From Candidatus Woesearchaeota archaeon (lineage in GTDB: Archaea; Nanobdellota; Nanobdellia; Woesearchaeales; B29-G15), in NCBI GenBank assembly GCA_017610005.1, contig JAFCCU010000004.1, positions 1 through 64,000 on the forward strand: a stretch of 64,000 nucleotides of DNA, given 5' to 3'. Every line of letters begins with the position of its first letter. Positions within the stretch are counted from its first letter, which is position 1. Shown piece by piece: positions 287-27,713 of the stretch. The translations under genes were made by a program, and so were the position numbers. The notes below the pieces were generated by a model. The model saw nothing but the letters and a program-made list of their open reading frames with translations. It was not told the DNA's origin and searched no databases.

Positions 287-1684
287 TTAATAATCAAACA
301 ACCTGTCCAATGGGAATCTCCTTTGGAGCACAAACCAGGTATAAACAAGGTTTGATAAAGCCTTTACAGGGTGATTGATAAACCTCTTCAACTTAATTGT
401 TGTAGCAATTTGCACCTCTGCCTGGTAATGCCTCAAAACCCCTTGCAACTTCACACTCCTCCACCCTTGCTGGCCATGGCTATAGCGCTGGGAAAGCAAA
501 CCATTATTCCCATGTATTGAAATACCATACTTTCCAGGGGTTTTGCTCATATAACTTCCCACTCTCAAATCAAATATTTCGGTGAAAGCATCATCAATGT
601 GGTTCTTGTTCCTCATCAAAAATTTTAAGGTCTCTTTGAAATCCTCCCTTGTTTCTGTTGGGAAGTTCACAATAAAAAAGCAATGGTTGAAAATCCCTGC
701 CTTCTTTATATTTATTAGGGATTGTTCAGCATCCTCCACCAAATGGGGTTTGTTCATTGATTTTAACACCTTTTGGCTTCCGCTCTCACACCCAATTAAG
801 AGGTATTTGCATCCTGATTTTTTCATATTTTGGGTTGTAGCAGAATCCAAGCCACCCGCATTTGCAAAAGCCCCCCACTGGATTTTGGCTCTTTTCAATT
901 CCTCTATGAAAGACTTGAAAACAAGTATATTATTGTTGATAGCGCAGTCTGAGAGAAAAAACAGATCTGTTTTATGTTTTTTTTTAAGTTGAATAATTTG
1001 CTCCACCTTGAGCTTCACAAAATCTGCAATCATGAGTTTATTAATTTTAAGGAGGGGGGTGTGCTCAACGCAAAAAGCGCAATTCTTATTGCACCCTTCA
1101 AGCAATATAAATGGGAGCACCAGCTTTGGCGTTCCATTGATTTTTGTTTTATACAAATCAATTTGAAGCCCAGAGAAATCCGGAGAAGGGACCAAGCAAT
1201 CATATTCCAATCCAAGATATCTTAAAAAAGACTGTAAATCTGAAAAAACTGAATCAATAAAATCGAATTTCTTCGCAAGGAGATTTCCATCAATGATGGT
1301 GAATAATTTGCCTCCAAAGAAGATGGTTTTTCCTTTCCTTTTTAGGTACCATGCTAAGGCTAAAGAAGGATAGAGTTGAGATTCTGTCATCACAGAAAAA
1401 CCAATGGAATCTTGCGGAATGGGTGAAGGGCCAAGGATGGATAGAGCATATCTCTCAAGTTCAGGCCCATTTTGGTTTTCAATGCATCCCTTTATATACT
1501 TAGAACTCCATTTCCTATAAAGCCCCTTTGATAAATTCTTTGTCTTTATCCAAAGGTCATCCATTTCCGCTTCTTTAAGCTGGGACTTAATCAAAGCAAG
1601 CCCCAAAGGAGGTGTGGACATTGCATCATTTCCTGTACAAGGGGGGAATATCAATCTTATTGATACATCATTTTTTCTTTTCAA
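287..1684 (-). CDS. Radical SAM protein (possible B12-binding-type)
   Basis: 465 aa; CNKNCAFC motif (CxxxCxxC); N-terminal STPPLGLALIKSQL resembles B12-binding radical SAM proteins. Confidence 0.75.
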   Translation of the reverse strand: MKRKNDVSIRLIFPPCTGNDAMSTPPLGLALIKSQLKEAEMDDLWIKTKNLSKGLYRKWSSKYIKGCIENQNGPELERYALSILGPSPIPQDSIGFSVMTESQLYPSLALAWYLKRKGKTIFFGGKLFTIIDGNLLAKKFDFIDSVFSDLQSFLRYLGLEYDCLVPSPDFSGLQIDLYKTKINGTPKLVLPFILLEGCNKNCAFCVEHTPLLKINKLMIADFVKLKVEQIIQLKKKHKTDLFFLSDCAINNNILVFKSFIEELKRAKIQWGAFANAGGLDSATTQNMKKSGCKYLLIGCESGSQKVLKSMNKPHLVEDAEQSLINIKKAGIFNHCFFIVNFPTETREDFKETLKFLMRNKNHIDDAFTEIFDLRVGSYMSKTPGKYGISIHGNNGLLSQRYSHGQQGWRSVKLQGVLRHYQAEVQIATTIKLKRFINHPVKALSNLVYTWFVLQRRFPLDRLFDY

Positions 1685-2432
1685 TTTGAATCATCCACCC
1701 ATTTGCGAATTTTTTTAAGAAGATTGAATTAAACCACTTGAAGCATTTTTCAATTTGCAAGCAATAGTTAAAAGAAGAATAGAAAGGATGTAACCCAAAC
1801 CTAGGCAGTATTTCCATTTTAGCTACCAGAGGTAATACTCCAAATGATTTGATCTCTTTTTTTGAGTAAAACCTGTGGAAAATCATCTGATTATGAAACC
1901 TTAATTTGAATTTATTTATTATGTAATATAGAATATGCTCTGGGTGATACTTATTCTGGAAGCTTGAAATCTGAATTATCCCCCCTGGTTTTACCACGCG
2001 CAATAATTCGTTTAAACACTTTGAATTAAAGTTAATGTGAAGTATTACTCCGCTTGAGAAAACCCCATCAAAAGCGTCATTCACAAAAGGCAATGGTTTG
2101 GTCACATCTGCCAAACAAATATTAATATTGCATGCCCTTGCCTTGAGCTTCCTCAAAGCCACTTTTGAGATATCAATTCCTACAGTAAATACCCCTTTTT
2201 GAGAGAAGGGCACTGCATAGGCTCCGTTTGAACCGCACCCAAATTCCAGTATTCTTAAGGGAAGCTTTTGTCTTTTCAAATTAGTTAATCCAATTCGCGC
2301 TTCTCCTTGTTGCCAACTAGAATCCAGCCATTCTCTTTCAGACATTCGTAGCCCTTGCTTGCCAATTGTGGTATCCCTTTCATCCCTTAAATAGAAATCA
2401 TTCCATTTCTTTGTTTCTGGGAACCTTCTCAT
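1668..2432 (-). CDS. Class I SAM-dependent methyltransferase
   Basis: LRILEFGCGSNGAYAVPF motif I, FDGVFSSGVILHI, LLRVVKPGGIIQI. Confidence 0.8.
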   Translation of the reverse strand: MRRFPETKKWNDFYLRDERDTTIGKQGLRMSEREWLDSSWQQGEARIGLTNLKRQKLPLRILEFGCGSNGAYAVPFSQKGVFTVGIDISKVALRKLKARACNINICLADVTKPLPFVNDAFDGVFSSGVILHINFNSKCLNELLRVVKPGGIIQISSFQNKYHPEHILYYIINKFKLRFHNQMIFHRFYSKKEIKSFGVLPLVAKMEILPRFGLHPFYSSFNYCLQIEKCFKWFNSIFLKKFANGWMIQIEKKK

Positions 2433-2483
2433 GATTCACAATTTGATACAATTCTTTTTAAGTTTTTGCTTTCTCCCTTAGTG

Positions 2484-3000
2484 GTTAATCAACCCCTCCA
2501 ATGCAGGCGTTTATGTATTTGAATAAGCTCTCTTCACACCTGTTGGCATATCCAGGCCCTTAACCTATTCCCTCTGAACGCCAGATCTCTGCAAAGGAAT
2601 TAGAAAAGATTTTACCAACTGGCGTGTTGCCCCTATAGCAGAGCGTGACATCCCATTCATAATAGATGAATGCAAATAGGCCACATAACACCTTCTCAAT
2701 TGTGTGAGATATAGAATCTCTTTTAAATTGGTCCTTACCTTTTTTTAGCCAATCATATTGCTTCTTCTACATTTTTAAGACTCTTCTTTGACTTAATTTA
2801 AAGCGCAGAGTTATGAGTATGGATTGCGATATTGAAATCCCCTGGTTTTCCAAACATAGCCCCAAACTCAATAAATTTCTTCATTTCTCATAATTCTGTT
2901 CAAACAAAGTTACATTGAACTTGATTATTTTCACCTTTTTCATTACCTTCAATGACTCACGATACTTTGCAAACTCAACCCAAGATAAACAACTGGAAAA
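2484..3000 (-). pseudogene. Decayed radical SAM/SPASM-domain protein (C-terminal remnant)
   Basis: Manual minus-strand translation gives SWVEFAKYRESLKVMKKVKIIKFNVTLFEQNYE / MKKFIEFGAMFGKPGDFNIAIHTHNSAL* / QYDWLKKGKDQFKRDSISHTIEKVLCGLFAFIYYEWDVTLCYRGNTPVGKIFSNSFAEIWRSEGIG*GPGYANRCEESLFKYINACIGGVD*; SPASM-like Cys pattern with frameshifts and internal stops. Confidence 0.6.
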
Positions 3001-3041
3001 TTTGATTGCTTATTGGAGGGTTTAAATAACTTGTTTTCAGA

Positions 3042-4454
3042 TCATGAATCACGGATGCGCAATAGGGTACTGGAACTATCAATCTCCAATACATCCACTG
3101 ACTTCCCTTGTGTTTGGAATAGTTTAGAAAACTCTTTTTGCATATTGGGCTTAGAGGAAACCCTAAATATCAGCCAAACCTCTTCATTCATATCAATGAA
3201 CTCCCTGATTTGTGTTTGGTCCCAAAAATAGGAGTGGAGGGTCTGGGATTCATAAACCTCTTGATAATAGTGATATAAGTAAATATTATAGTACGAAGGA
3301 TAAAATAAGATTATGGCCCCTGGGTCCTGTGCAAGGATTCTTTCCACTGCACCAGTGTAGGGTTTGGATTCTTGGTAAATCCTTCCAACCCCTATCAGCC
3401 CCACTCCAACAAATATTATGAGCAAAAACCAGCCCACACGCTTTAACCTACACAATAAGTTTGACAATACTCCAAGCATAAAAGGGATAAGCACAATGAA
3501 ATAATCTTGATTGGCCAAGGAGAATCCAAAAGGGAGTTGCTGGAAAATGAAACACCCCAAAAAGAACATGGCCACAGGTATCACCAAAACAATCAAGGCA
3601 GTCCAATTCAACAATGCTACTCCAAGGGCAAACAAGATGGGGGCACCCATGCTGAAGGATTTAAAGGAGAAAAACCCCTCCCCTATACTGAGAAGATTCA
3701 CAAGGGTTAGCCTTGGGAGCCAGTTCAAGGCCAGTTTTACAATATAAAATCCCTTAAGTTTAGGGATTATCACCCCAATTATCCAAGGCACAAACCCCAC
3801 TCCAAGCCAAAACATGTGCTTCACAAATCTCCAAACCTGCCTCCAATTCAAGACAAGCAAGATCCCCCCCTGCGATAAAAGCAGTAGCACTCCAATATAA
3901 TGGGAGCTAACCATTGCAAAGGTTGCAACCAGATAGAGTATGCTTAATCCTTTGCGATTCTTCAAGAAAACATTCACAAAATATGTGAAAGAGAACAGTG
4001 CTGAAAAGATGAACAAGGAATACATGCGGGCACTACGTGATATCACAATCAATCCAGGATTAAAAGCAAAGAGAATTGCCCCTATGAAAACTGTCTTCTT
4101 GTTATTGAAAATTGTTTGCAAAAAAACTGAGAACATCAATATGCTTACCACTCCAATTATTGCTGACAATAGCCTTGCCCCCACTTCCCTTGAACCAAAA
4201 TACTGAATCCAAACGGAAGAAAGTATATATGAAAAAGGCAAGGCAGGCATATCCACATATGATACTCCAAAAGGGAGCTCAGCTTTAGACATTGCCAAGT
4301 GGGCAAAATCTTCAGGTGACGCGAGAGTGAGAAAGTTGATTTCATTTAGCTGTAATTCGCAGGCATCGAGATTGAAGACGCGCAGGAAAGTGGCTGTGGA
4401 TAAGAGGATTAAGATTGCCAAAAGGATCCCTATTCTTTTCTGTTTGCCCATCAT
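3042..4454 (-). CDS. PMT/ArnT-like membrane glycosyltransferase (GT-C fold)
   Basis: 470 aa, many TM segments, early acidic motif FNLDACELQLNEI and REVGARLLSAIIG. Confidence 0.65.
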   Translation of the reverse strand: MMGKQKRIGILLAILILLSTATFLRVFNLDACELQLNEINFLTLASPEDFAHLAMSKAELPFGVSYVDMPALPFSYILSSVWIQYFGSREVGARLLSAIIGVVSILMFSVFLQTIFNNKKTVFIGAILFAFNPGLIVISRSARMYSLFIFSALFSFTYFVNVFLKNRKGLSILYLVATFAMVSSHYIGVLLLLSQGGILLVLNWRQVWRFVKHMFWLGVGFVPWIIGVIIPKLKGFYIVKLALNWLPRLTLVNLLSIGEGFFSFKSFSMGAPILFALGVALLNWTALIVLVIPVAMFFLGCFIFQQLPFGFSLANQDYFIVLIPFMLGVLSNLLCRLKRVGWFLLIIFVGVGLIGVGRIYQESKPYTGAVERILAQDPGAIILFYPSYYNIYLYHYYQEVYESQTLHSYFWDQTQIREFIDMNEEVWLIFRVSSKPNMQKEFSKLFQTQGKSVDVLEIDSSSTLLRIRDS

Positions 4455-16288: not shown

Positions 16289-16447
16289 ATGGTGAAAGTT
16301 GTTGTAAACAACGGCCAATATAAGCTAACCATTCCTAAAGAATTAGCAGAAGCTAAAGGTTGGACCTCTGGAACGGTTATTAGATTTGTTGAAACCTCTG
16401 ATGGAGACATCATCCTAAGAGAATTAAAAAAGGAGGTGGGCAAATGA
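16289..16447 (+). CDS. AbrB/SpoVT-like DNA-binding protein (copy 2), absent from ORF track
   Basis: 52 aa: MVKVVVNNGQYKLTIPKELAEAKGWTSGTVIRFVETSDGDIILRELKKEVGK; ATGA overlap with the next gene. Confidence 0.75.
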   Translation: MVKVVVNNGQYKLTIPKELAEAKGWTSGTVIRFVETSDGDIILRELKKEVGK

Positions 16448-18309
16448 AAGCTTCTAAGCTAACAATGCTCGCAATACTCCTATTCTTAACTATTGGATTT
16501 GCATCTGCCGCCACATTAAAACCTAGTACTAAGTATATTAACATCCAAACAGAATTTGAAGAACTATCAGTTACTCTTGAAAAAACTTCATATGTTGATC
16601 TTATTGCGCATTGTCCTGATTTTGCAAATAGTAGTTGTCCTGCCTGGGAGATTTATAACACAACAATAACTCAGAATAGCTCTCATGTAACTTTTAATGT
16701 ATGGGAAAGGGGGGCTTTTATTGGTATCTCATTACCAAGAATAAATGTAACAAGAAATTTAACTCAAATTAAAGCAATGCTTGAAAATTTAAGAAACATT
16801 ACAATCACTTCATTAGATGAAACGTCTCAAGGATTACTCTTAGAATTTACCCTTCCAATTACTGGAATGCAAAAAATTATGCAAGTAAGTGATGCAGTTA
16901 TCTTAATTGAAGGGTTAAAAAATGAGAGTAATCTAAAGAATGCTCAACGAGTACAGTTGCACAATATTACATATAATTCAGAAATCATTGAGATGAGAAC
17001 TGATGTTGTAGCATTAGAAGTTGAAAACTTTTCTAATGCACAGATAAAAGTTCCTAAGGAAGGGGTTGTAAACACAATAATGAAATGTTCTGACTGGGAC
17101 TTTAATTTGAGTAATTGCGTATCTTGGACTCCAACAACAATTTCATTTACTCAAGATGATGATTTTGTATATTTTAATGTAACAAGTTTTAGTGCCTACG
17201 GGGGAGTTGAACTAACTGTTTTAACAATACAAAGTTATCCTCAAGTAGGAGATATTTGGACTACAAAAGTTATAACAAAAGGAACTGCAAACCTATCAAT
17301 TGTTGGTGTAGAAGGAACAATCTTTGGTGAAGACTTAGTATTTGACAGTTTAAGATGCGAAGATACAACAATAGATGTTATAGAAATTGATAATGGAATC
17401 ATGGTTGAAAATTATACTTGTGATGGAACTACTTACCATAATGTTCAGGTTATTACAAGTGGAAAACACTCGCAACGGATTACCTTTGGAGATATCGTTG
17501 GTTTCTCAAGAAACCTTGCAAATGAAATGCCAGAAATTATTACTGTAGAAGGTAAGTTAACCAACAGCACTGATCAAAACCAAAATGGCACCTTTAACAT
17601 TACATTTAGATTGTATGATGTTGCGACAGACGGAATACCATTATGGATTGAAACTCACGAAGAAGTTCATGTTGAAGACGGAATCTTCTCTCAACGCCTT
17701 GGAAATGAAACTGCGTTAACACTGGATTGGAATACTCAATATTACTTAGAATTAATGATGGAAGGCGATCAAAATATGACTCCAAGGATAAATCTTTCAA
17801 GTACTCCTTATGCAAATTCAGCAGATAGAGCATTTAACTTAAGTTGTACTGATTGTATTGATGAAACTCAGATTGATACTGCAGATGAATTTGTAATTGA
17901 AGGTATCTTGAATATGACTAGTGCAGATATTAGTATGCACAGTAACAGAGTCATTAATTTATCAGATCCTGTCGCGCCACAGGATGCAGCAACAATGGCG
18001 TATGTTGACGCGCAATCAATGGGAGGGTCTGAAAGTGCTGGGTGGAGTAATTCATCTGGGTATGTTTATTTGACAACTTATACTGATGAGGTTAATTTGA
18101 CTTCGCTTTATGTAAACAATTCAAACTCAAGAGTAGGTATTGGCACATATAATCCACAAGCAGAACTTCATGTTGTGGGAAATTTAAATGTGACTAAAAA
18201 TATTACCAGTAGTAGTTATAGAATTGAAGACGCAACAGATTCAATTGTTATCAGTGCAACTGGAAGTAAACCAATTGTGTTAACAACAGATAGAGGTACT
18301 TGGACTTAG
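16444..18309 (+). CDS. Secreted protein with tail-fibre-like C-terminal region
   Basis: Signal peptide; EIITVEGKLTNSTDQNQNGTFNITFRLYD...TPRINLSSTPYANSADRA; APQDAATMAYVDAQ; VGIGTYNPQAELHVVG. Confidence 0.7.
   Translation: MKASKLTMLAILLFLTIGFASAATLKPSTKYINIQTEFEELSVTLEKTSYVDLIAHCPDFANSSCPAWEIYNTTITQNSSHVTFNVWERGAFIGISLPRINVTRNLTQIKAMLENLRNITITSLDETSQGLLLEFTLPITGMQKIMQVSDAVILIEGLKNESNLKNAQRVQLHNITYNSEIIEMRTDVVALEVENFSNAQIKVPKEGVVNTIMKCSDWDFNLSNCVSWTPTTISFTQDDDFVYFNVTSFSAYGGVELTVLTIQSYPQVGDIWTTKVITKGTANLSIVGVEGTIFGEDLVFDSLRCEDTTIDVIEIDNGIMVENYTCDGTTYHNVQVITSGKHSQRITFGDIVGFSRNLANEMPEIITVEGKLTNSTDQNQNGTFNITFRLYDVATDGIPLWIETHEEVHVEDGIFSQRLGNETALTLDWNTQYYLELMMEGDQNMTPRINLSSTPYANSADRAFNLSCTDCIDETQIDTADEFVIEGILNMTSADISMHSNRVINLSDPVAPQDAATMAYVDAQSMGGSESAGWSNSSGYVYLTTYTDEVNLTSLYVNNSNSRVGIGTYNPQAELHVVGNLNVTKNITSSSYRIEDATDSIVISATGSKPIVLTTDRGTWT
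18038..18120 (+). repeat. Shared module copy 1
   Basis: gctgggtggagtaattcatctgggtatgtttatttgacaacttatactgatgaggttaatttgacttcgctttatgtaaacaa. Confidence 0.8.
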
Positions 18310-18312
18310 GAG

Positions 18313-19218
18313 GTGAAAGAGATGATATGCAATAAAAAATTTACAGTGGTTTTATTTATCCTATTATCTCTCCTAGCGATAGCCCCATTTGCTTATTCTG
18401 CAACAAGTATACGCCTAAATCCTAGTACGGAATACATCGATATCTTTGGCTACTTGAATATGACAAGTTTTCGGGTTGTTAACATGTCTGATCCAATTGA
18501 TGACCAAGATGCTGCAACAAAAGCTTATGTTGATGCAACATCTGGAGGATCAGAAGGCGCTGGGTGGAGTAATTCATCTGGGTATGTTTATTTGACAACT
18601 TATACAGATGAGGTTAATTTGACTTCGCTTTATGTGAATAACACAAATAATAGAGTGGGGATTATGACAAAAAATCCAACCCAAGCACTCCATGTAGTGG
18701 GGAGTGCCAACTTCACTGGCTCGCTTGAATTATCAACTGGGGCAAATGTTAACGAGTTTTCAGTGGATGACACTCTTGGAGGGGATAGTGATATTGCTGT
18801 GCCAACAGAACAAGCTGTTAAAGCTTATGTTGACGGGAAAATAGCAGGAGGATCAGAAGGCGCTGGGTGGAGTAATTCATCTGGGTATGTTTATTTGACA
18901 ACTTATACAGATGAGGTTAATTTGACTTCGTTGTATGTAAATAATACAAACGGGAACGTAGGGATCGGGACCAAAAATCCCTTATCAAAATTACAGGTTA
19001 TTGGAGATACTAACCTAAATAACACCCTCTACATAGATGCTGTTAATGACCGGGTGAGTATTGGTTTATCCACAGTCGCCTACACATTTGCAATAAGTAA
19101 CGGCACATCAAACATAACCTTTGACCTTGATGCTGCAACACCAACAATTAACACTAGTTCAACAGAAGATTTAATCATCACTGCAGGTACTGGAAACGTG
19201 ATAATTCAGATAGGGTGA
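18313..19218 (+). CDS. Secreted tail-fibre-like protein, related to the upstream gene
   Basis: Signal peptide; DDQDAATKAYVDA; two copies of GSEGAGWSNSSGYVYLTTYTDEVNLTSLYVNNTN; VGIGTKNPLSKLQV. Confidence 0.7.
   Translation: MKEMICNKKFTVVLFILLSLLAIAPFAYSATSIRLNPSTEYIDIFGYLNMTSFRVVNMSDPIDDQDAATKAYVDATSGGSEGAGWSNSSGYVYLTTYTDEVNLTSLYVNNTNNRVGIMTKNPTQALHVVGSANFTGSLELSTGANVNEFSVDDTLGGDSDIAVPTEQAVKAYVDGKIAGGSEGAGWSNSSGYVYLTTYTDEVNLTSLYVNNTNGNVGIGTKNPLSKLQVIGDTNLNNTLYIDAVNDRVSIGLSTVAYTFAISNGTSNITFDLDAATPTINTSSTEDLIITAGTGNVIIQIG
18559..18642 (+). repeat. Shared module copy 2
   Basis: Near-identical DNA to copy 1. Confidence 0.8.
18861..18945 (+). repeat. Shared module copy 3
   Basis: Near-identical DNA to copies 1 and 2. 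Confidence 0.8.
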
Positions 19219-19287
19219 CTCAAACAAAGTTTGAGGAATTGAAAATGCCCTAATACTCTCTTAAGGCATTTTAAATAAGTATTTTTT

Positions 19288-19467
19288 CTTATTTTATAAG
19301 TTTTTTTTTGATTAATATTCTCATTTTATAAGAAGAATTAAGTGTTCCATAGGAAATGGGGGGGTGTTTTCTTACAATATACTCAAAAGTTCCCATTTTA
19401 TGAGAAAATTTATATACTAGTTTTTTGAATATTCATAATAAGAAAAAATAAAATCTTAATTTATAAG
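19288..19467. promoter_or_regulatory. Four 13-bp palindromic sites, consensus CYYAWTTTATRAG
   Basis: CTTATTTTATAAG 19288-19300; CTCATTTTATAAG 19320-19332; CCCATTTTATGAG 19392-19404; CTTAATTTATAAG 19455-19467; TATA-like tttatatac lies between sites 3 and 4. Confidence 0.6.
19344..19366 (+). promoter_or_regulatory. ORB-like sequence
   Basis: gttccataggaaatgggggggtg, similar to the ORB-like sites near cdc6. Confidence 0.4.
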
Positions 19468-19486
19468 AAAAAGTCTTACATAGACA

Positions 19487-19942
19487 GTGAATAACCCAAA
19501 TCTAAAAGAGGATGTTGAAACAATTAAACTCCTCTTAGAAAAGCATAATTTAACTGTTGGGGCACTAGATCTAATATTAAATGAAACCTCAATTAACATC
19601 CCCTTATCAATTTTCAAAAAAAAAGCTGGTCCTTTAAGTGTGATTTGCCATTATCTAAAAGACTATAAAAATTTAAAATTAGTAGACATTGCCAAACTTC
19701 TAAACCGAGATCAAAGAACAATTTGGGCGTCTTATAACAAAAGTAGCATAATTAAGTTAAATATTAATTCAAAAATATTTGTTGATGTAAAAATATTTTC
19801 TAATCGCAATAACAGCATAATGGAAAATTTAACATTTTATTTAGTAAATGTTCACAAATTAAGATTAATTGAAATTTCCAAATTAATTAACAGAAGCAAT
19901 AAAACCATTTGGTGTTTTTATAATAGGGCAAAATATGTTTAA
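19487..19942 (+). CDS. Tandem helix-turn-helix DNA-binding protein
   Basis: GTG start; two related HTH units: LKDYKNLKLVDIAKLLNRDQRTIWASYNKS and LVNVHKLRLIEISKLINRSNKTIWCFYNRA. Confidence 0.65.
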   Translation: MNNPNLKEDVETIKLLLEKHNLTVGALDLILNETSINIPLSIFKKKAGPLSVICHYLKDYKNLKLVDIAKLLNRDQRTIWASYNKSSIIKLNINSKIFVDVKIFSNRNNSIMENLTFYLVNVHKLRLIEISKLINRSNKTIWCFYNRAKYV

Positions 19943-22900
19943 AAAGATATTTGTTTGGATAATTGCAGCTTTAATAATTTTACAAATATCAGTATATGCA
20001 ATTGAATGTGAAATCATTTTGACACTATATGATCCAGAAGATACCCCTGTGGATACTATTTCTTGTTTTTATGAAAGCACAGATGAAGACAAAGAAATAT
20101 CGTGTTCAATGCCTTTTGATAAATGTTTTATGACTGGGCTTTATACCCTTAACACAGATGACACCAGTGACCCGCTATGTACTGGAATTGACGAAACAGA
20201 TGATTTTGCAATATGTGATGTAACCCCCCCCAATATGGTTGGAACTTCACCTGCGCAATTTTCTGTTGCAGTTGAAACAGATGGAGATGGTTCTGTTAAT
20301 GCCTCTTGGAATGTGTATGAAGATGACATGCTCCTGTATTATGCATTTGAAGATAACGATGCAACAGATTGGACTAATGAGTCAAGAGATGGGATTATCA
20401 CTGGAATTGATGAATATTTTGATGGGTATAGGGCTACAGGGCAAGCAGCTTACTTTGATGGAACTGATGATTATATCAATATATCTGATGACCTTGGAGA
20501 TCCAAGCGGAGCAACAATTTCCCTTTGGTTAAATGCTACAAATTGGAATTCTAGAGCATATATTCTAGATGCAAGAAAAGGTGGGAATTGGAATTTTACA
20601 CTAGATGATAACTCCGGTTCTTGCGCAGGTACTGATGGAAATCTATGTTTTGACGGACGGGCGGAAATTGTAAAAACACAATTGAACTGGACCAATAGCA
20701 CATGGATTCATGTAGTTGTAACCTGGGACTCCACCTCAACGATTATGTATGTAGATGGAATAAATCTTACAACAGGCACAGGAGAAGACCCAGATTTCGG
20801 ACCTAGCATAATAATTGGTACAAAATATGACTTAATATCATCAATTGATTGGACTGGATCAATGGATGAAATAATGATTTTTAATAAAACATTAACTAAG
20901 TCTGAGGTAATCAATCTATATCTCTCGGGATTAGTTACCCATAGCCTTCATGTGGCCCCAGATGCTATTGGAAGTGAAGGACCTTACGCCTCGGCGATTG
21001 GTTATATTGAAAAATTTAAAACTAATAATACTTGGGCAGATAATTTTACTGCGACTGGAGAAACAGCAGATGTGTTGTGGAGTGTTTCAGGTGAAGCTGG
21101 TGTTGCAACCGTTTCAACACCAACAGACTACTCTTGCAAACAGCAAAAATATCTTAATATGGAAGGCCATGATGTTTTAATTAAGTATGATGTCAAATTT
21201 GCAGGGGATGCTAAAACTGGAGGAATAAACTACTCTGGAGTTTTTGTAGCTATTAATCCAAATTCTTCTGGGTGGCATGATGATGACTCTGATGTAAACT
21301 TCTCAGGCATTAATAATTCAGGGGAATGGTTTACTGTAAAATTATATATTTTTGGTAATAGATCTGGAAAAGTGACTAGTGCGTTAGATGTAGATCGTAA
21401 AAGTATATTCTTTGAAGAATTGATTAATGTAAGCAGTTTTGCAAATTCCAAAATAGGAATTGTCAGCCCAAAAGATGCTGGAACAATGACCATTGATAAT
21501 TTTGAAGTAATATACCTTGAAGATGGAATATCTTCAATAGATACAAATTCAACTGATATTGATGGCCCCGTTTCACCTACCCTCAAGCCAGTTGGCGCAA
21601 TTGATTTTGGATCAATAGGAATGAGCTGGGATCCTGCAACTGATTCTGGAACTTCATACTATTATTATCTTGTAGGCATTGATAGTTCTGGTAATCCCTC
21701 TAATCTCCTCCAAAATGTGGATTTTGAATCTGCGCTTTTCTCCCCTTGGGAAGGAGATGGTTTAACTCCTGCAGCTACATCTACAGACAACCATTATGGC
21801 AATTATTCTTTAAGTGTCACTACCTCTGGAGTAGGAGAAGGAGTGTATCAATCTGTAGAAGAATTTACATATTACAAGGGAAATAATCTCTACTTTGAAT
21901 GTTTTGTTAGAACTGTATCTGGAACTGGAGACATTCAAATTGGGGCAGATACATTTACTAACCATAATTCTAGTATTGAAGTATCAACTACTTGGCAAAA
22001 AATATCTCATGCAGGAACTGTTGATTCAGGCGCAGGATCACTTAATGCGTATATAAAATCAAATGAAAGTGCAGGAATTTCTTTTTACATTGACAGTTGC
22101 AGTCTCCAGTTTTATGATGTAGCAGATGTTGCCGTAGGCATTAAAGACTATAGATTAAATAGAACTTCAGGAGGTACTCCTGGTACAGTTTATGGGTGGG
22201 GGACAAGCACTAATACTCAAGATACAGGTCTTAATTGTTTTACTCAATATGGGTACACGCTTGAAACTAGAGATGATAAAGGAACGCCAGATGAATCAGG
22301 TTCATCTAACGAAGAATTGGATTATGCGATTACCACAGACGAATGTGAATATTTCAATATAGGGGAGGGATATTGTTTAGATCATAAAACAGAAGATGAC
22401 GATGACGGAGAAGATGATGTTTGTTACACTCGATTAAATGAACCTTGTGTTGAAAAAATCTGCGAAATGCCTGGAAATTCTTCAGGAAATTACTGTTGGT
22501 TTGATGATAATTTAAATGGGCTTGTGGATAGAAGTGATGATTGTCAAAATGTAGCATATAATGATGGATGCAATGTAACATCTTTTAATCATCCCTCTTG
22601 TGATGTAGGAGACTTTGATGATATGACTATTGGAAGCCCGAATGCAGATTGTTGGGCAGGAACCAACTGTTACTACAATGATTCTTATTCTTGCTCAAAT
22701 AATACTGGCTGGTCTTATCAAACAGATTCCACTGATTGCACTGCACCAGATACCACCTGCTGTGTAACTGAAGCAACCAGAACAGAAGGAGATGGTTGCT
22801 CTGACACAGGAGAAACAGGAACAGCTTATGACAGAGACACAACTGAAACAAGATGCGAAGCAACCGATACTGGTTGTACTGAATGGACTTGGACCAATGT

Positions 22901-25900
22901 TTCAGATGCATGCTGTGGGGATGATGAAGGAAGTGATACTTTCTTTGATGTGGGTTATGAAGCAGGCTCATGCGAAGGAGGAGCATGGTCGGATAATCAC
23001 TGCACAGATAGCGCAACAAGTGCAGGTGAAACAAGTGAGGATTATGGTGGGCCTTGGTGTAATGACCGACCTGAATTGAACACTCTTCTTCTAAATGCTA
23101 GTAGTGAGAATAATTACACTGTAGATAACATAACAGTTTATTATACGGTCCGAGAAAATGACACTGATACTTTTTTTCCTATTGTTGATTGGAGAATAGA
23201 TGGAAAAAGCATAGCTGTTTTAAACATGCCATTTGAACGAGACAATCAAAGTGATGGAACAATAAAAGACTTTTCCTCATTTGAAAATAATGGGACTGGA
23301 GTAAATGGGGTTGGTTGGACCCAGTATGGATTTATTGGGGGGGCTATGAATTTTGATGGAATTAATGATTATATCAATGCCACAAACCACAGCTCGTTTA
23401 ATAATACTGATAGTTTAGGGATTATACTTTGGGCAAAACCCACAACTCTCCAATCTTGTGTACTTGTTGCAAAAGAAGGCGCCTACATGTTAAACATAAG
23501 TGCATCAGCACTTAGGGGAGTGATTCATGATGGATCAAAATATCAAAACCTTTCTTATGCAATCTCTTCAAATGAGTGGTATCTTATTGGCCTGTCTTAT
23601 AATCAAAATCAATTAAAACTATATATTAATGGAAGTGAAGCAGCGTCAAAAGCAGTGACTGGCACAATAACTGCTAATCCAAACGAAGTAATCTTAGGCT
23701 CATTAGGGGGTTCCACTCTATTTTTCCCAGGACTTCTTGATGAGGTGCGAATATTCAATAGAAGTCTTACGCCAGAACAAATAACTGCAATCTACAATCA
23801 AGAAAAAAACAGCTATTCAAAGCTTGTATTGGACATGCACTTTGGACAGAATGCCAGCTTTGATTCAGACTTAGATGTAAGAGACTATTCTCAGTATGGC
23901 AACAATGGAACTCTTGGCAGCGGTACCCAAGCGTGGGCACCAATATGGAATGATACAGGCCAGATTGGCGGGAGTTATTATTTTGATGGACTTGTTCATT
24001 ATATTAATATAAGCGACTCTCATAGTTTAGATCCTTCAGCAGTAGTTTCAATCGCAACATGGGTAAAAGATCCTCCTGTAGGTTATGTTGAACCAAAATC
24101 AGGACCCGAGATTATTTCTGCAAGTGTGAACCCTACAAAAGTAAGACCAGGAGATCAAATGGAGATTAAGGCTGAGATTACAGATAAACATGGAATTGAA
24201 AATGTGACTGCTGCCATGGAACATGATAAGGGGAATGATGAACTTCTGCTCACACTAGTAGAAGGCACCCAATTTGATGGCTCCTGGCAAGCCACATGGA
24301 TTGTGCATGATACAGTTGAAAAGGCATACACCACTAAACTCACTGGAGTTAATGTGCTCGGTGAGACTTCATCTGAGAACATCAAATGGTATGATCCCAT
24401 TGGATACGTAAACACGTATGAATTCTCAGATACAACAAACAACAAGGCCTATTACAAAAATGGAACTGCTACAACTCCTTTTGATTATGATGCTGAAGTA
24501 AATGCAGGAAATTACACTGCAATGGAAACAAGTGATAATTCAAGAAGTATTGTGGCTAAGGCTACCCAGGATGGGGGGTATGATACCCAAGTTTACACCT
24601 TCACAATCACTGAGACAATTGCAGATATTTCCAATTTGACCGTGGAATGGGAGGGGTATGGTGAAGACACTGCTTCGTATTATACCAACATTAGCTTCTG
24701 GAACTGGTCAGGAAGTAGTTGGAAAGAAGTGGATAACAATGATTTCACAGCAAGCACAGATGCAATTCTAACTGGGGCCATTACCTCTAGCGTGAGTGAT
24801 TTCATCAACTCAAGTAACAAGATGGTGGCTGTGAGGGTTACTTCAAAAAACGCTCTAGAATCAAGCTCATGCGAGGATGTCTGTCAGGCTGTTTGTTCTT
24901 GTGATTGGACTCCCACTAATTGTTGGACTGGCGGGCCAGCACCAATGTCATGTATGGCCGATGGAGGATCTGAATGTGCTCCAAATTTATGTATTTGCAA
25001 TTGCGCAATGTTTTGTCCCTTCATCTACTCCTGGAACGGCACAGAGTATGAGTATGACACCCAGATAATCTACAATATTAGCTCTAAAAGTCAAGAGACC
25101 CTTCAATACCGCAATCTCACAAAGGCTAGTGCTAACGGGGACGAACTCTGGTTCCAAGTAAGGGAGGAGGAACCTGAAACCTCATACATTGATGAGCTTT
25201 TCATTGAAGTAGAGGATTCAAACGGAGAGGAGGTGGTTGTTACGAAACTCTATCCCTCATTTGCTTCACGAGACCTTTATGAACTCCTAGTGGAGGATGA
25301 GAATTACTTGGTAACTAATTTTGGGGATGTGGTTGATTTACGATTTAGTGGTGTACCTCAACTTCCCCAAGGCTGGGACAGGAAGATAAGAGTAGGGGCA
25401 AGGGGGTACTATGAATTCTACGGAGAGCAAGAAAAACCGTCAATACATGACACAGGCACTCACAACTCACTCAACACAGATTACGTTGAATTGCGAGTTA
25501 ACGCTGACAGATACATTATCACCAACCTTCCGGCTGGTTTGGATCTCCAGATTATAGGAAACTCTACATATAATCTTTCAAGTATTCCAGCAAGCGGAAC
25601 AGCTAATGTGCTTATTAACAAAAGTGGTATTGCCATTGCTAACTTCTCAATGGATTTTACACAAGATATGGACTTTTCAGGAATCACTGCTGACGCCAAT
25701 TCAACCCATTCAGTGATTCACATTGATACTAGCACTCACACATACGTCAATCCCAGCTTCACCCTAAGAATTCCAGTTGTAGATGGCTCCAACATAACCT
25801 ATATCTGTCCGAATGCTCAAACGATTACTGATGTGAATAAGATATGTTCAGGGAAATATTGGGTGACTGGCTTAACTAATATTAGTGGGTATTATCACGT

Positions 25901-27713
25901 GAAGGTCACTGGCTCAGGCGGAGCAGAAGGGGATGGTTCACAAAATAAAACCATTGTAGACAAAGGGGGTGCTTATGGGCTTATGTTAAATGGTACAGGA
26001 GATGTGCTTATAGGTAGAATCAACGACAAAACTGTTTCCTATGCTGTTGCAAACCCTCTAGCCTGGCATTACCATGTGATGACTTATGATGGTGCAAACA
26101 TTAAACTTTATATTGATGGAACACTTGTTAACACTACAGCTTACTCTTCGGCAATCACTGTTAACACAAATGAAACATTAATAGGAGATTATTTCTCTGG
26201 ATTAATAGATGAAGTGAAAATTTTCAACGCCACCCTTTCGCAACAGGAGATAACTAATATGTACAATGAAGGACTTGATTTAAGAAGCTCGGTTCTTGTT
26301 GCCAATGAAACAGTAGAAGGAGATAATTTCACAGCAATGATTTGGGGGAGTGATAACATTCTCCTATCAGCTAATTACACATCAAATTGGATTGAAATAC
26401 AAAATTCACCACCAACACTAATAGGAATTTCAGTTGGAACTGATCCTATTGCAGGGGGGCAAACTCAAACAGTTACTGCAACAACCCCAAGAGATAATGA
26501 CCAAGAGAACCTGTATATGTATTGTTGTAATGATACTGATGATTCCTGCACCCCAAGTTCATCAGTAAATGTATGTGTGGAAAGTGATTATGCTTATCCT
26601 TATTCGGGAATGGAGTGTACATGGGCAACCCCTTATGTTGATGAAAATCCATTTTATGTCAGATGTGTAACAAATGATGGGACTACTTCTTCGGCAATTA
26701 TCAGTGATTCTTTTGTGGTTGATTCAACAGCTCCAACTGTTGACGTTTTAGACCCCCCAAATAATTATGTAAGGGGTACGCAAGAGATTAATGCAAGTGT
26801 ATCTGATGCAGGAGTTGGTTTAAAAGATAACTCCTGTAAATGGTCGTTTGAAGAATCAGGAGTTTCTTGGACTGCTGGAAGTGATGATTTTGCACAAGAA
26901 GATGCTAGCGGAAAGTGCTATTATGACCTCGACACATCAGGATATGATGACGGGACGCTCTACATAATCAATTGGACAGTTAACGACACTATAAACAATA
27001 AAGGAAATGATTCTGATGCAGAATCTGCTTATGTTTGCAATGAACTTGATGTAGCTAACTGTGGTCAAGCCTGCGAAGATCAAACAAGCCCTGATCATTT
27101 TTATAATGGGGGAGGATTCCACACTTTTGATTTTGAAGCAGGAACAACTGCAAATTGTTGCGAAGATGATGTTGCAGAAACTTTTGTGAATTATACAATT
27201 GGTGCAAGTTGGTATATTTCATGTTGTGATAATGCAGGGGACTGTGTTGACGAAACAAGTACTTGTAGGGATGGCATCGAAGGGACTGGAAGCGGAAACT
27301 GTAATGATGGATTTGACAATGACTGTGATTCTTTAATAGATTTTTTAGATGATGAATGTTGTCCAACTGTTTCAGGATCACTCTTTGTTGTGCAAAATGC
27401 AACTAGAAAAAATTGCACCATGGTTGATGAAGACGGAGACATGTCAATTTTAGGAGATCTAACAACAAGTTGTGGAGATTCTCCGGGTGCAAATGATTTT
27501 ATTGTGAGGACAAATGCAGGTTCAGTTGTCTTTTTTGTAGATAGCGATAATTGCAATGCCTGTCTTGCAGGCACAGTTAATCAGGATGAAGCAAGCATCT
27601 CTGCAGGTACAAATGAATTTTTAGTAATGAACAGCGCAGGAGATTATGTAATGAAAATTGATAATTCTGGAGATTTATACTTAACAGGATTCTTGGGGGC
27701 TACTTGTGATTAA
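19935..27713 (+). CDS. Giant (2592 aa) secreted protein with LamG-like domains and Cys-rich segments
   Basis: Signal peptide; LamG-like units ending SMDEIMIFNKTLTKSEVINLY, LLDEVRIFNRSLTPEQITAIYN, LIDEVKIFNATLSQQEITNMYN; C-terminal NCNDGFDNDCDSLIDFLDDEC. Confidence 0.85.
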   Translation: MFKKIFVWIIAALIILQISVYAIECEIILTLYDPEDTPVDTISCFYESTDEDKEISCSMPFDKCFMTGLYTLNTDDTSDPLCTGIDETDDFAICDVTPPNMVGTSPAQFSVAVETDGDGSVNASWNVYEDDMLLYYAFEDNDATDWTNESRDGIITGIDEYFDGYRATGQAAYFDGTDDYINISDDLGDPSGATISLWLNATNWNSRAYILDARKGGNWNFTLDDNSGSCAGTDGNLCFDGRAEIVKTQLNWTNSTWIHVVVTWDSTSTIMYVDGINLTTGTGEDPDFGPSIIIGTKYDLISSIDWTGSMDEIMIFNKTLTKSEVINLYLSGLVTHSLHVAPDAIGSEGPYASAIGYIEKFKTNNTWADNFTATGETADVLWSVSGEAGVATVSTPTDYSCKQQKYLNMEGHDVLIKYDVKFAGDAKTGGINYSGVFVAINPNSSGWHDDDSDVNFSGINNSGEWFTVKLYIFGNRSGKVTSALDVDRKSIFFEELINVSSFANSKIGIVSPKDAGTMTIDNFEVIYLEDGISSIDTNSTDIDGPVSPTLKPVGAIDFGSIGMSWDPATDSGTSYYYYLVGIDSSGNPSNLLQNVDFESALFSPWEGDGLTPAATSTDNHYGNYSLSVTTSGVGEGVYQSVEEFTYYKGNNLYFECFVRTVSGTGDIQIGADTFTNHNSSIEVSTTWQKISHAGTVDSGAGSLNAYIKSNESAGISFYIDSCSLQFYDVADVAVGIKDYRLNRTSGGTPGTVYGWGTSTNTQDTGLNCFTQYGYTLETRDDKGTPDESGSSNEELDYAITTDECEYFNIGEGYCLDHKTEDDDDGEDDVCYTRLNEPCVEKICEMPGNSSGNYCWFDDNLNGLVDRSDDCQNVAYNDGCNVTSFNHPSCDVGDFDDMTIGSPNADCWAGTNCYYNDSYSCSNNTGWSYQTDSTDCTAPDTTCCVTEATRTEGDGCSDTGETGTAYDRDTTETRCEATDTGCTEWTWTNVSDACCGDDEGSDTFFDVGYEAGSCEGGAWSDNHCTDSATSAGETSEDYGGPWCNDRPELNTLLLNASSENNYTVDNITVYYTVRENDTDTFFPIVDWRIDGKSIAVLNMPFERDNQSDGTIKDFSSFENNGTGVNGVGWTQYGFIGGAMNFDGINDYINATNHSSFNNTDSLGIILWAKPTTLQSCVLVAKEGAYMLNISASALRGVIHDGSKYQNLSYAISSNEWYLIGLSYNQNQLKLYINGSEAASKAVTGTITANPNEVILGSLGGSTLFFPGLLDEVRIFNRSLTPEQITAIYNQEKNSYSKLVLDMHFGQNASFDSDLDVRDYSQYGNNGTLGSGTQAWAPIWNDTGQIGGSYYFDGLVHYINISDSHSLDPSAVVSIATWVKDPPVGYVEPKSGPEIISASVNPTKVRPGDQMEIKAEITDKHGIENVTAAMEHDKGNDELLLTLVEGTQFDGSWQATWIVHDTVEKAYTTKLTGVNVLGETSSENIKWYDPIGYVNTYEFSDTTNNKAYYKNGTATTPFDYDAEVNAGNYTAMETSDNSRSIVAKATQDGGYDTQVYTFTITETIADISNLTVEWEGYGEDTASYYTNISFWNWSGSSWKEVDNNDFTASTDAILTGAITSSVSDFINSSNKMVAVRVTSKNALESSSCEDVCQAVCSCDWTPTNCWTGGPAPMSCMADGGSECAPNLCICNCAMFCPFIYSWNGTEYEYDTQIIYNISSKSQETLQYRNLTKASANGDELWFQVREEEPETSYIDELFIEVEDSNGEEVVVTKLYPSFASRDLYELLVEDENYLVTNFGDVVDLRFSGVPQLPQGWDRKIRVGARGYYEFYGEQEKPSIHDTGTHNSLNTDYVELRVNADRYIITNLPAGLDLQIIGNSTYNLSSIPASGTANVLINKSGIAIANFSMDFTQDMDFSGITADANSTHSVIHIDTSTHTYVNPSFTLRIPVVDGSNITYICPNAQTITDVNKICSGKYWVTGLTNISGYYHVKVTGSGGAEGDGSQNKTIVDKGGAYGLMLNGTGDVLIGRINDKTVSYAVANPLAWHYHVMTYDGANIKLYIDGTLVNTTAYSSAITVNTNETLIGDYFSGLIDEVKIFNATLSQQEITNMYNEGLDLRSSVLVANETVEGDNFTAMIWGSDNILLSANYTSNWIEIQNSPPTLIGISVGTDPIAGGQTQTVTATTPRDNDQENLYMYCCNDTDDSCTPSSSVNVCVESDYAYPYSGMECTWATPYVDENPFYVRCVTNDGTTSSAIISDSFVVDSTAPTVDVLDPPNNYVRGTQEINASVSDAGVGLKDNSCKWSFEESGVSWTAGSDDFAQEDASGKCYYDLDTSGYDDGTLYIINWTVNDTINNKGNDSDAESAYVCNELDVANCGQACEDQTSPDHFYNGGGFHTFDFEAGTTANCCEDDVAETFVNYTIGASWYISCCDNAGDCVDETSTCRDGIEGTGSGNCNDGFDNDCDSLIDFLDDECCPTVSGSLFVVQNATRKNCTMVDEDGDMSILGDLTTSCGDSPGANDFIVRTNAGSVVFFVDSDNCNACLAGTVNQDEASISAGTNEFLVMNSAGDYVMKIDNSGDLYLTGFLGATCD
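24070..25935 (+). other. ~620-aa domain block inserted in the third LamG domain of the giant protein
   Basis: LamG 3 N-part ...AVVSIATWVKDP is separated from its C-part SQNKTIVDKGGAYGLMLNGTGDVLIG... by unrelated sequence. Confidence 0.6.

Follow-up and report, generated by a model that had tools for sequence, protein, structure and literature searches.

The third LamG domain of a giant, predicted secreted protein of a Candidatus Woesearchaeota archaeon is, with a probability of about 0.7, a jelly-roll scaffold in which recombination exchanges whole nested modules that serve for binding or display. The gene lies in a stretch of 64,000 nucleotides, the window. Different cargo is found in this LamG in 3/3 orthologs, across two loops, the join of two contigs being assumed for one of them (G001).

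Domain organization of the giant protein

The ORF of 2592 aa spans exactly 19935..27713 on the + strand, where all features described below for this gene and its upstream neighbours also lie, and contains every motif on which the original prediction was built. Its N-terminus is signal-peptide-like and it has orthologs in two further genomes, G001 and G002. The Pfam model Laminin_G_3 (PF13385) matches three stretches of the protein. The first two are complete, uninterrupted domains as had been proposed, LamG1 (20457..20909, profile positions 1-150, E 1.7e-22) and LamG2 (23355..23783, positions 1-150, E 4.2e-24). The third stretch covers profile positions 32-150 only (25938-26252, E 8e-17) and corresponds to the carboxyl half of LamG3 (25938..26294; positions 34-157 of our own LamG profile), which alone scores 61.9 bits against a curated cut-off of 27.6. 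The amino half, including the first strands (23820..24074), matches the LamG profile from position 1 to 28 or up to 42, and the G002 ortholog aligns with it up to the split. It ends with ...VVSIATWVKDP (...FDGLVHYINISDSHSLDPSAVVSIATWVKDP) at aa 1380 (nt 24074), while the carboxyl half opens with SQNKTIVDKG (SQNKTIVDKGGAYGLML...) at aa 2002 (nt 25938).

When the LamG3 halves are joined in silico they form one domain that covers positions 1-157 of our own profile with 106.6 bits, more than the sum of the halves scored singly (12.9 bits for the amino and 87.0 bits for the carboxyl half). Note that intact domains, largely from the same order, went into this profile, and that the joined score derives from it and not from Pfam. 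A joined score above the sum of the parts was also obtained with the LamG profile for G002, for the paralogous locus C20 and for G167 and G054 cases (see below). At the level of sequence, these comparisons establish the window LamG3 halves as complementary parts of a single LamG, broken by 621 aa where a block of ~620 aa had been predicted. AlphaFold2 models of the window and G002 proteins, computed with LamG alignments in which one strand was misaligned in the input, have pLDDT values mostly of 60-96 in both halves of LamG, and most of the cargo stays below 50. As far as pLDDT values go, this pattern is compatible with a single jelly roll that surrounds a loop insert, without proving it. The earlier description of the insertion site as a surface-exposed loop holds as far as the fold family and the AlphaFold confidence in the halves carry it, and not as a solved structure. 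A Foldseek search with the model returned only a generic ConA-like fold, over one half, with clostridial neurotoxin binding domains as the best PDB representatives; no functional meaning is drawn from this match.

The inserted cargo block (aa 1381-2001, 24075..25937) has no counterpart in the orthologs. It begins with a weakly assigned Ig-like domain (24075..24392; Big_7, E 0.013, below the cut-off, with homologs in other proteins), followed by a GH114_assoc domain (24525..24866; PF14741, 29.5 bits against a curated cut-off of 22), by the Cys-rich cluster anticipated in the original prediction (aa 1646-1694, 24870..25016) and by a C-terminal domain (25512..25928) present in two copies in the paralogous C20 ORF B (BLASTP E 7e-22 and 1e-12). 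GH114_assoc is a cargo domain above its Pfam cut-off, yet no GH114 catalytic domain was found by Pfam anywhere in the giant protein. The protein terminates with a conserved module common to the three orthologs (27360..27710; 48% identity to G001:C18, present in G002). Two tail-fibre-like genes (16444-18309 and 18313-19218) are found upstream of the giant gene.

Unrelated cargo in orthologous proteins

The orthologs compared belong to Ca. Woesearchaeota genomes of the same genus, G001 (Guaymas) and G002 (Alinen lake sediment). The expectation that homologs would lack the block was borne out in both. The G002 ortholog (2703 aa) is 39% identical to the window protein over window aa 20-1377 (1358 aa), where the alignment halts at the split. 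Its LamG3 is interrupted in the same loop by a cargo of 473 aa and then resumes. This cargo is not similar to the window block (best E 0.22), matches Golvesin_C weakly and has no relatives in 144 other genomes. The G002 ortholog, as read from its alignment, holds unrelated cargo in the loop that is occupied in the window protein. The two genes also share neighbours: each is preceded by a tail-fibre-like gene and followed by a thymidine-kinase-like one, identities that were read from sequence.

The G001 ortholog is distributed over two contigs. Contig C78 stops in LamG3 at 'YYFDGSNDY', and contig C18 opens within another unrelated cargo, the third, at least some 190 aa long, after which LamG3 resumes from profile position 11-13 and is followed by the conserved C-terminus. 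Joined, C78 and C18 give a complete LamG3 (121.6 bits, nearly all from C18). This strongly suggests that G001 carries a third cargo in an adjacent loop of LamG3, provided that the two contigs are indeed contiguous.

Composition and origin of the inserted block

The block differs from its flanks in codon usage, as the original prediction had noticed. GC3 is 0.238 before the block, 0.385 within it and 0.240 after it, while the mean of the other window genes (n=31) is 0.26. The value expected for the block from flank codon usage, amino-acid-matched, is 0.233 (z about 9.7). GAG (32 vs 5.6 per 1000) and AAG (16 vs 3.6) are both enriched about fivefold, and CTC is also raised (14.5 vs 6.1). The predicted richness in G/C and in GGG held to a lesser degree, total GC being mildly up (0.425 vs 0.38) and GGG hardly so (21 vs 17 per 1000). 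A change-point search blind to domains placed the best GC3 segment at aa 1425-1996 (24207..25922) with a log-likelihood gain of 28.2, compared with at most 9.5 in 10 shuffles. Horizontal transfer out of a genome with a higher GC3 is strongly suggested as the source of the block. The boundaries of exchange and of domain do not coincide exactly: GC3 is native (0.205) in the initial 44 codons of the block, and the exchange boundary may therefore fall within the first Ig-like domain. Neither a strong composition shift in the G002 cargo nor a GC3 shift like that of the window block in the C20 paralog genes was found.

In-frame acquisition of a foreign block had been proposed. The present cargo does appear foreign, but the interruption itself is probably older than the block that now fills it, because the three orthologs and the paralog are all interrupted in this LamG. 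A homolog of most of the block (36% identical) occurs in a 3796-aa protein of G065 outside any LamG; the block thus occurs as a module in its own right. Five other genomes, and other parts of the window genome, contain shorter relatives. Viral contigs yielded none, nor did a peptide-pattern search of genome_contigs, and no sequence match of the block to solved structures was convincing. The block junctions have no target-site duplications and no direct or inverted repeats, and Pfam detects no recombinase in the block; none of the marks of a transposon (terminal repeats, target duplication, own recombinase) is seen at the junctions or within the block.

An intein or Hint-type insert was considered and rejected for the window block, in which Pfam finds no Hint domain. 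The G065 protein (locus L032) has a Hint-like domain at aa about 755-860, in the Cys cluster that follows a second GH114_assoc-like module copy, and the cargo is therefore itself a nesting site. Two small ORFs resembling a VapBC-type toxin-antitoxin pair lie antisense within the same 3796-aa surface ORF (L032:8389-9279); only the second of them has a Pfam match, PIN_2 (E 5.5e-17), and the sense frame is open throughout.

A paralogous LamG divided between two genes

A paralogous locus of the same genome, on contig C20, has the LamG divided at the window's loop between two overlapping genes, as indicated by the profile scores. ORF A, a frame of 1930 codons, ends in a LamG N-half at the split place of the window protein, with FTLVIWAKGDSS directly before its stop. 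ORF B, which starts with TTG and has a ribosome site of the GGTGA type, overlaps this stop (GGGTGATTCAAGTTGAATAA). It opens with a signal-peptide-like stretch followed by a Kelch propeller and carries near its end the two copies of the block's C-terminal domain, the second of which directly precedes the LamG C-half and a tail similar to that of the window protein. The ends of A and B joined score 83.3 bits as one LamG, compared with 11.1 and 65.4 singly. We infer that the secreted A and B proteins may re-form one LamG by association. A search for ORF B as a standalone gene elsewhere gave partial relatives only. Upstream of the pair are two genes with pilin-like N-termini (L113 12166-14579), and the NCBIfam TafC fimbrial model matches the LamG parts weakly, below its cut-off.

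Nested LamG domains across the order

Laminin_G_3 is present in 267/353 genomes of the order. The order-wide listing gives only the best, intact matches, and nesting was therefore surveyed in 60 fetched regions. Strong LamG matches guided the choice of these regions, and the sample is not random. They contain 208 intact LamGs, although other families of the order do have nested ones. Nesting within this sample was found in G054:C5, where an insert of 366 aa with a LamG and another domain lies inside a LamG, and twice in G292:C6, as a LamG in a LamG, for which joining adds little score, and as a 175-aa insert. Further cases come from outside the sample. Propeller-like repeats occupy the window's loop in G167:C16/C238 (the contig join being presumed) and the next loop, over 196 aa, in G167:C150; in G054:C60 the window's loop is interrupted, and a Gly-rich stretch and another domain precede the C-half, which begins at Pfam position 33. 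None of the viral LamGs (67 loci) is nested, a few being merely cut by locus ends. The G009 and G023 contigs that end inside a LamG run past the loop and were not counted as cases. In G076, contig C15 (end of L106) stops and contig C9 (start of L244) begins in the loop at which the window LamG is split; these ends could reflect strain-variable cargo, or chance.

Proposed mechanism and alternative explanations

In the favoured explanation, LamG3 would be a single ConA-like jelly roll that acts as a two-point scaffold. The loop between its early beta strands would bear the cargo, that is the Ig-like domain, GH114_assoc, the Cys cluster, an unnamed domain and the C-terminal domain, which would fold independently and project from the surface protein on its two connections. 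From lineage to lineage the whole cargo would be swapped, with the LamG halves and the remaining protein retained. LamG would most likely tolerate insertion in the loops between strands, where modules could be exchanged by ordinary recombination because an insertion there leaves the remaining protein intact. By analogy with the host-recognition role proposed for DPANN LamG proteins, contact with a partner cell or glycan may be made by the cargo, which would set what is bound.

Replacement could also be the work of a dedicated mobile or programmed cassette system that swaps cargo at the loop, by site-specific recombination or by gene conversion between LamG copies, and that is possibly strain-variable. 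The different cargo in all orthologs would fit such a system, as would the contigs that end at or near the loop in G001 (C78) and G076 (C15/C9), a pattern that strain differences predict. However, contig breaks have other causes, the junctions lack direct or inverted repeats, the block has no Pfam recombinase, and the orthologs are only about 40% identical; a cassette system appears improbable. Hardly better placed is slow, ancient domain shuffling devoid of special function, with insertions gathered neutrally in tolerant LamG loops. Nested inserts at several loops and in several families, with miscellaneous cargo types, are what it would produce, but it leaves aside that insertion recurs in one domain of one gene and that a large in-frame block with a recent foreign composition points to a current replacement that has been kept, and not to drift.

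A chimera of two genes fused during assembly could be suspected in a draft of 62 contigs with a GC3 change at the block. It is very improbable: both junctions are in frame and within a LamG loop, an independent genome has an equal architecture with other cargo, and the last domain of the block adjoins the LamG C-half in the same-genome paralog too. A bolder form of scaffold-based replacement is that woesearchaeal LamG loops are true cargo slots whose binding modules are exchanged at a high rate even between strains, the slot of one locus having become two genes, the secreted products of which would together make up one LamG in trans as a naturally split pair. Taken as a whole it is unlikely.

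Relation to known systems

Nested domain insertion and DPANN LamG surface proteins are already known. Calnexin and calreticulin have a ConA-like lectin fold whose sequence is interrupted by an inserted P-domain arm and which is still one domain (PMC7687155). The window protein resembles them in that an insert is nested in a ConA-like lectin fold. The architecture is analogous only and no family membership is claimed; a calreticulin-family model had no match in the giant protein at E up to 1. The calnexin/calreticulin insert is one homologous domain in all members, whereas that of the window protein is larger, multi-domain and unrelated between orthologs. Distinctive in the present case are that cargo was replaced from one ortholog to another, that insertion recurs in one domain, and that a version in two genes exists. 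In sialidases that have lectin domains and propellers, ConA-like and propeller folds are combined with one inserted in the other, the lectin domain lying within the catalytic propeller chain; in G167, on the contrary, LamG contains the propeller-like repeats. DPANN LamG surface proteins (ARMAN, nanohaloarchaea) are secreted, multi-LamG and abundant in small-genome archaea, and a role in host recognition was proposed for them (PMC5498576, PMC10266531). The window protein is likewise multi-LamG, with secretion predicted from its N-terminus. No description of nested LamG in archaea or of cargo replacement inside a LamG was found in the open-licence literature.

A conserved scaffold with a swapped module gives a direct handle on how partner specificity changes in ultra-small archaea. 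The orthologs differ mainly in the module, and the cargo lends itself to ligand assays and to comparison with the range of partners. The nested LamGs also form a series from nature in which domains are inserted into domains of one and the same fold, together with a candidate naturally split LamG.

Other features of the window

The region 5' of the giant gene (19219-19942) contains an AT-rich stretch with repeated TTTTATAAG-like motifs, as well as a G7 run. An ORF of 151 aa in this region, whose two halves are similar, has no Pfam match and overlaps the start of the giant gene. Three genes at 287-4454, for a radical SAM protein, a methyltransferase and a PMT-type glycosyltransferase-like protein, have GC3 values of 0.37-0.47, compared with the window mean of 0.26, and are possibly a second acquired region.
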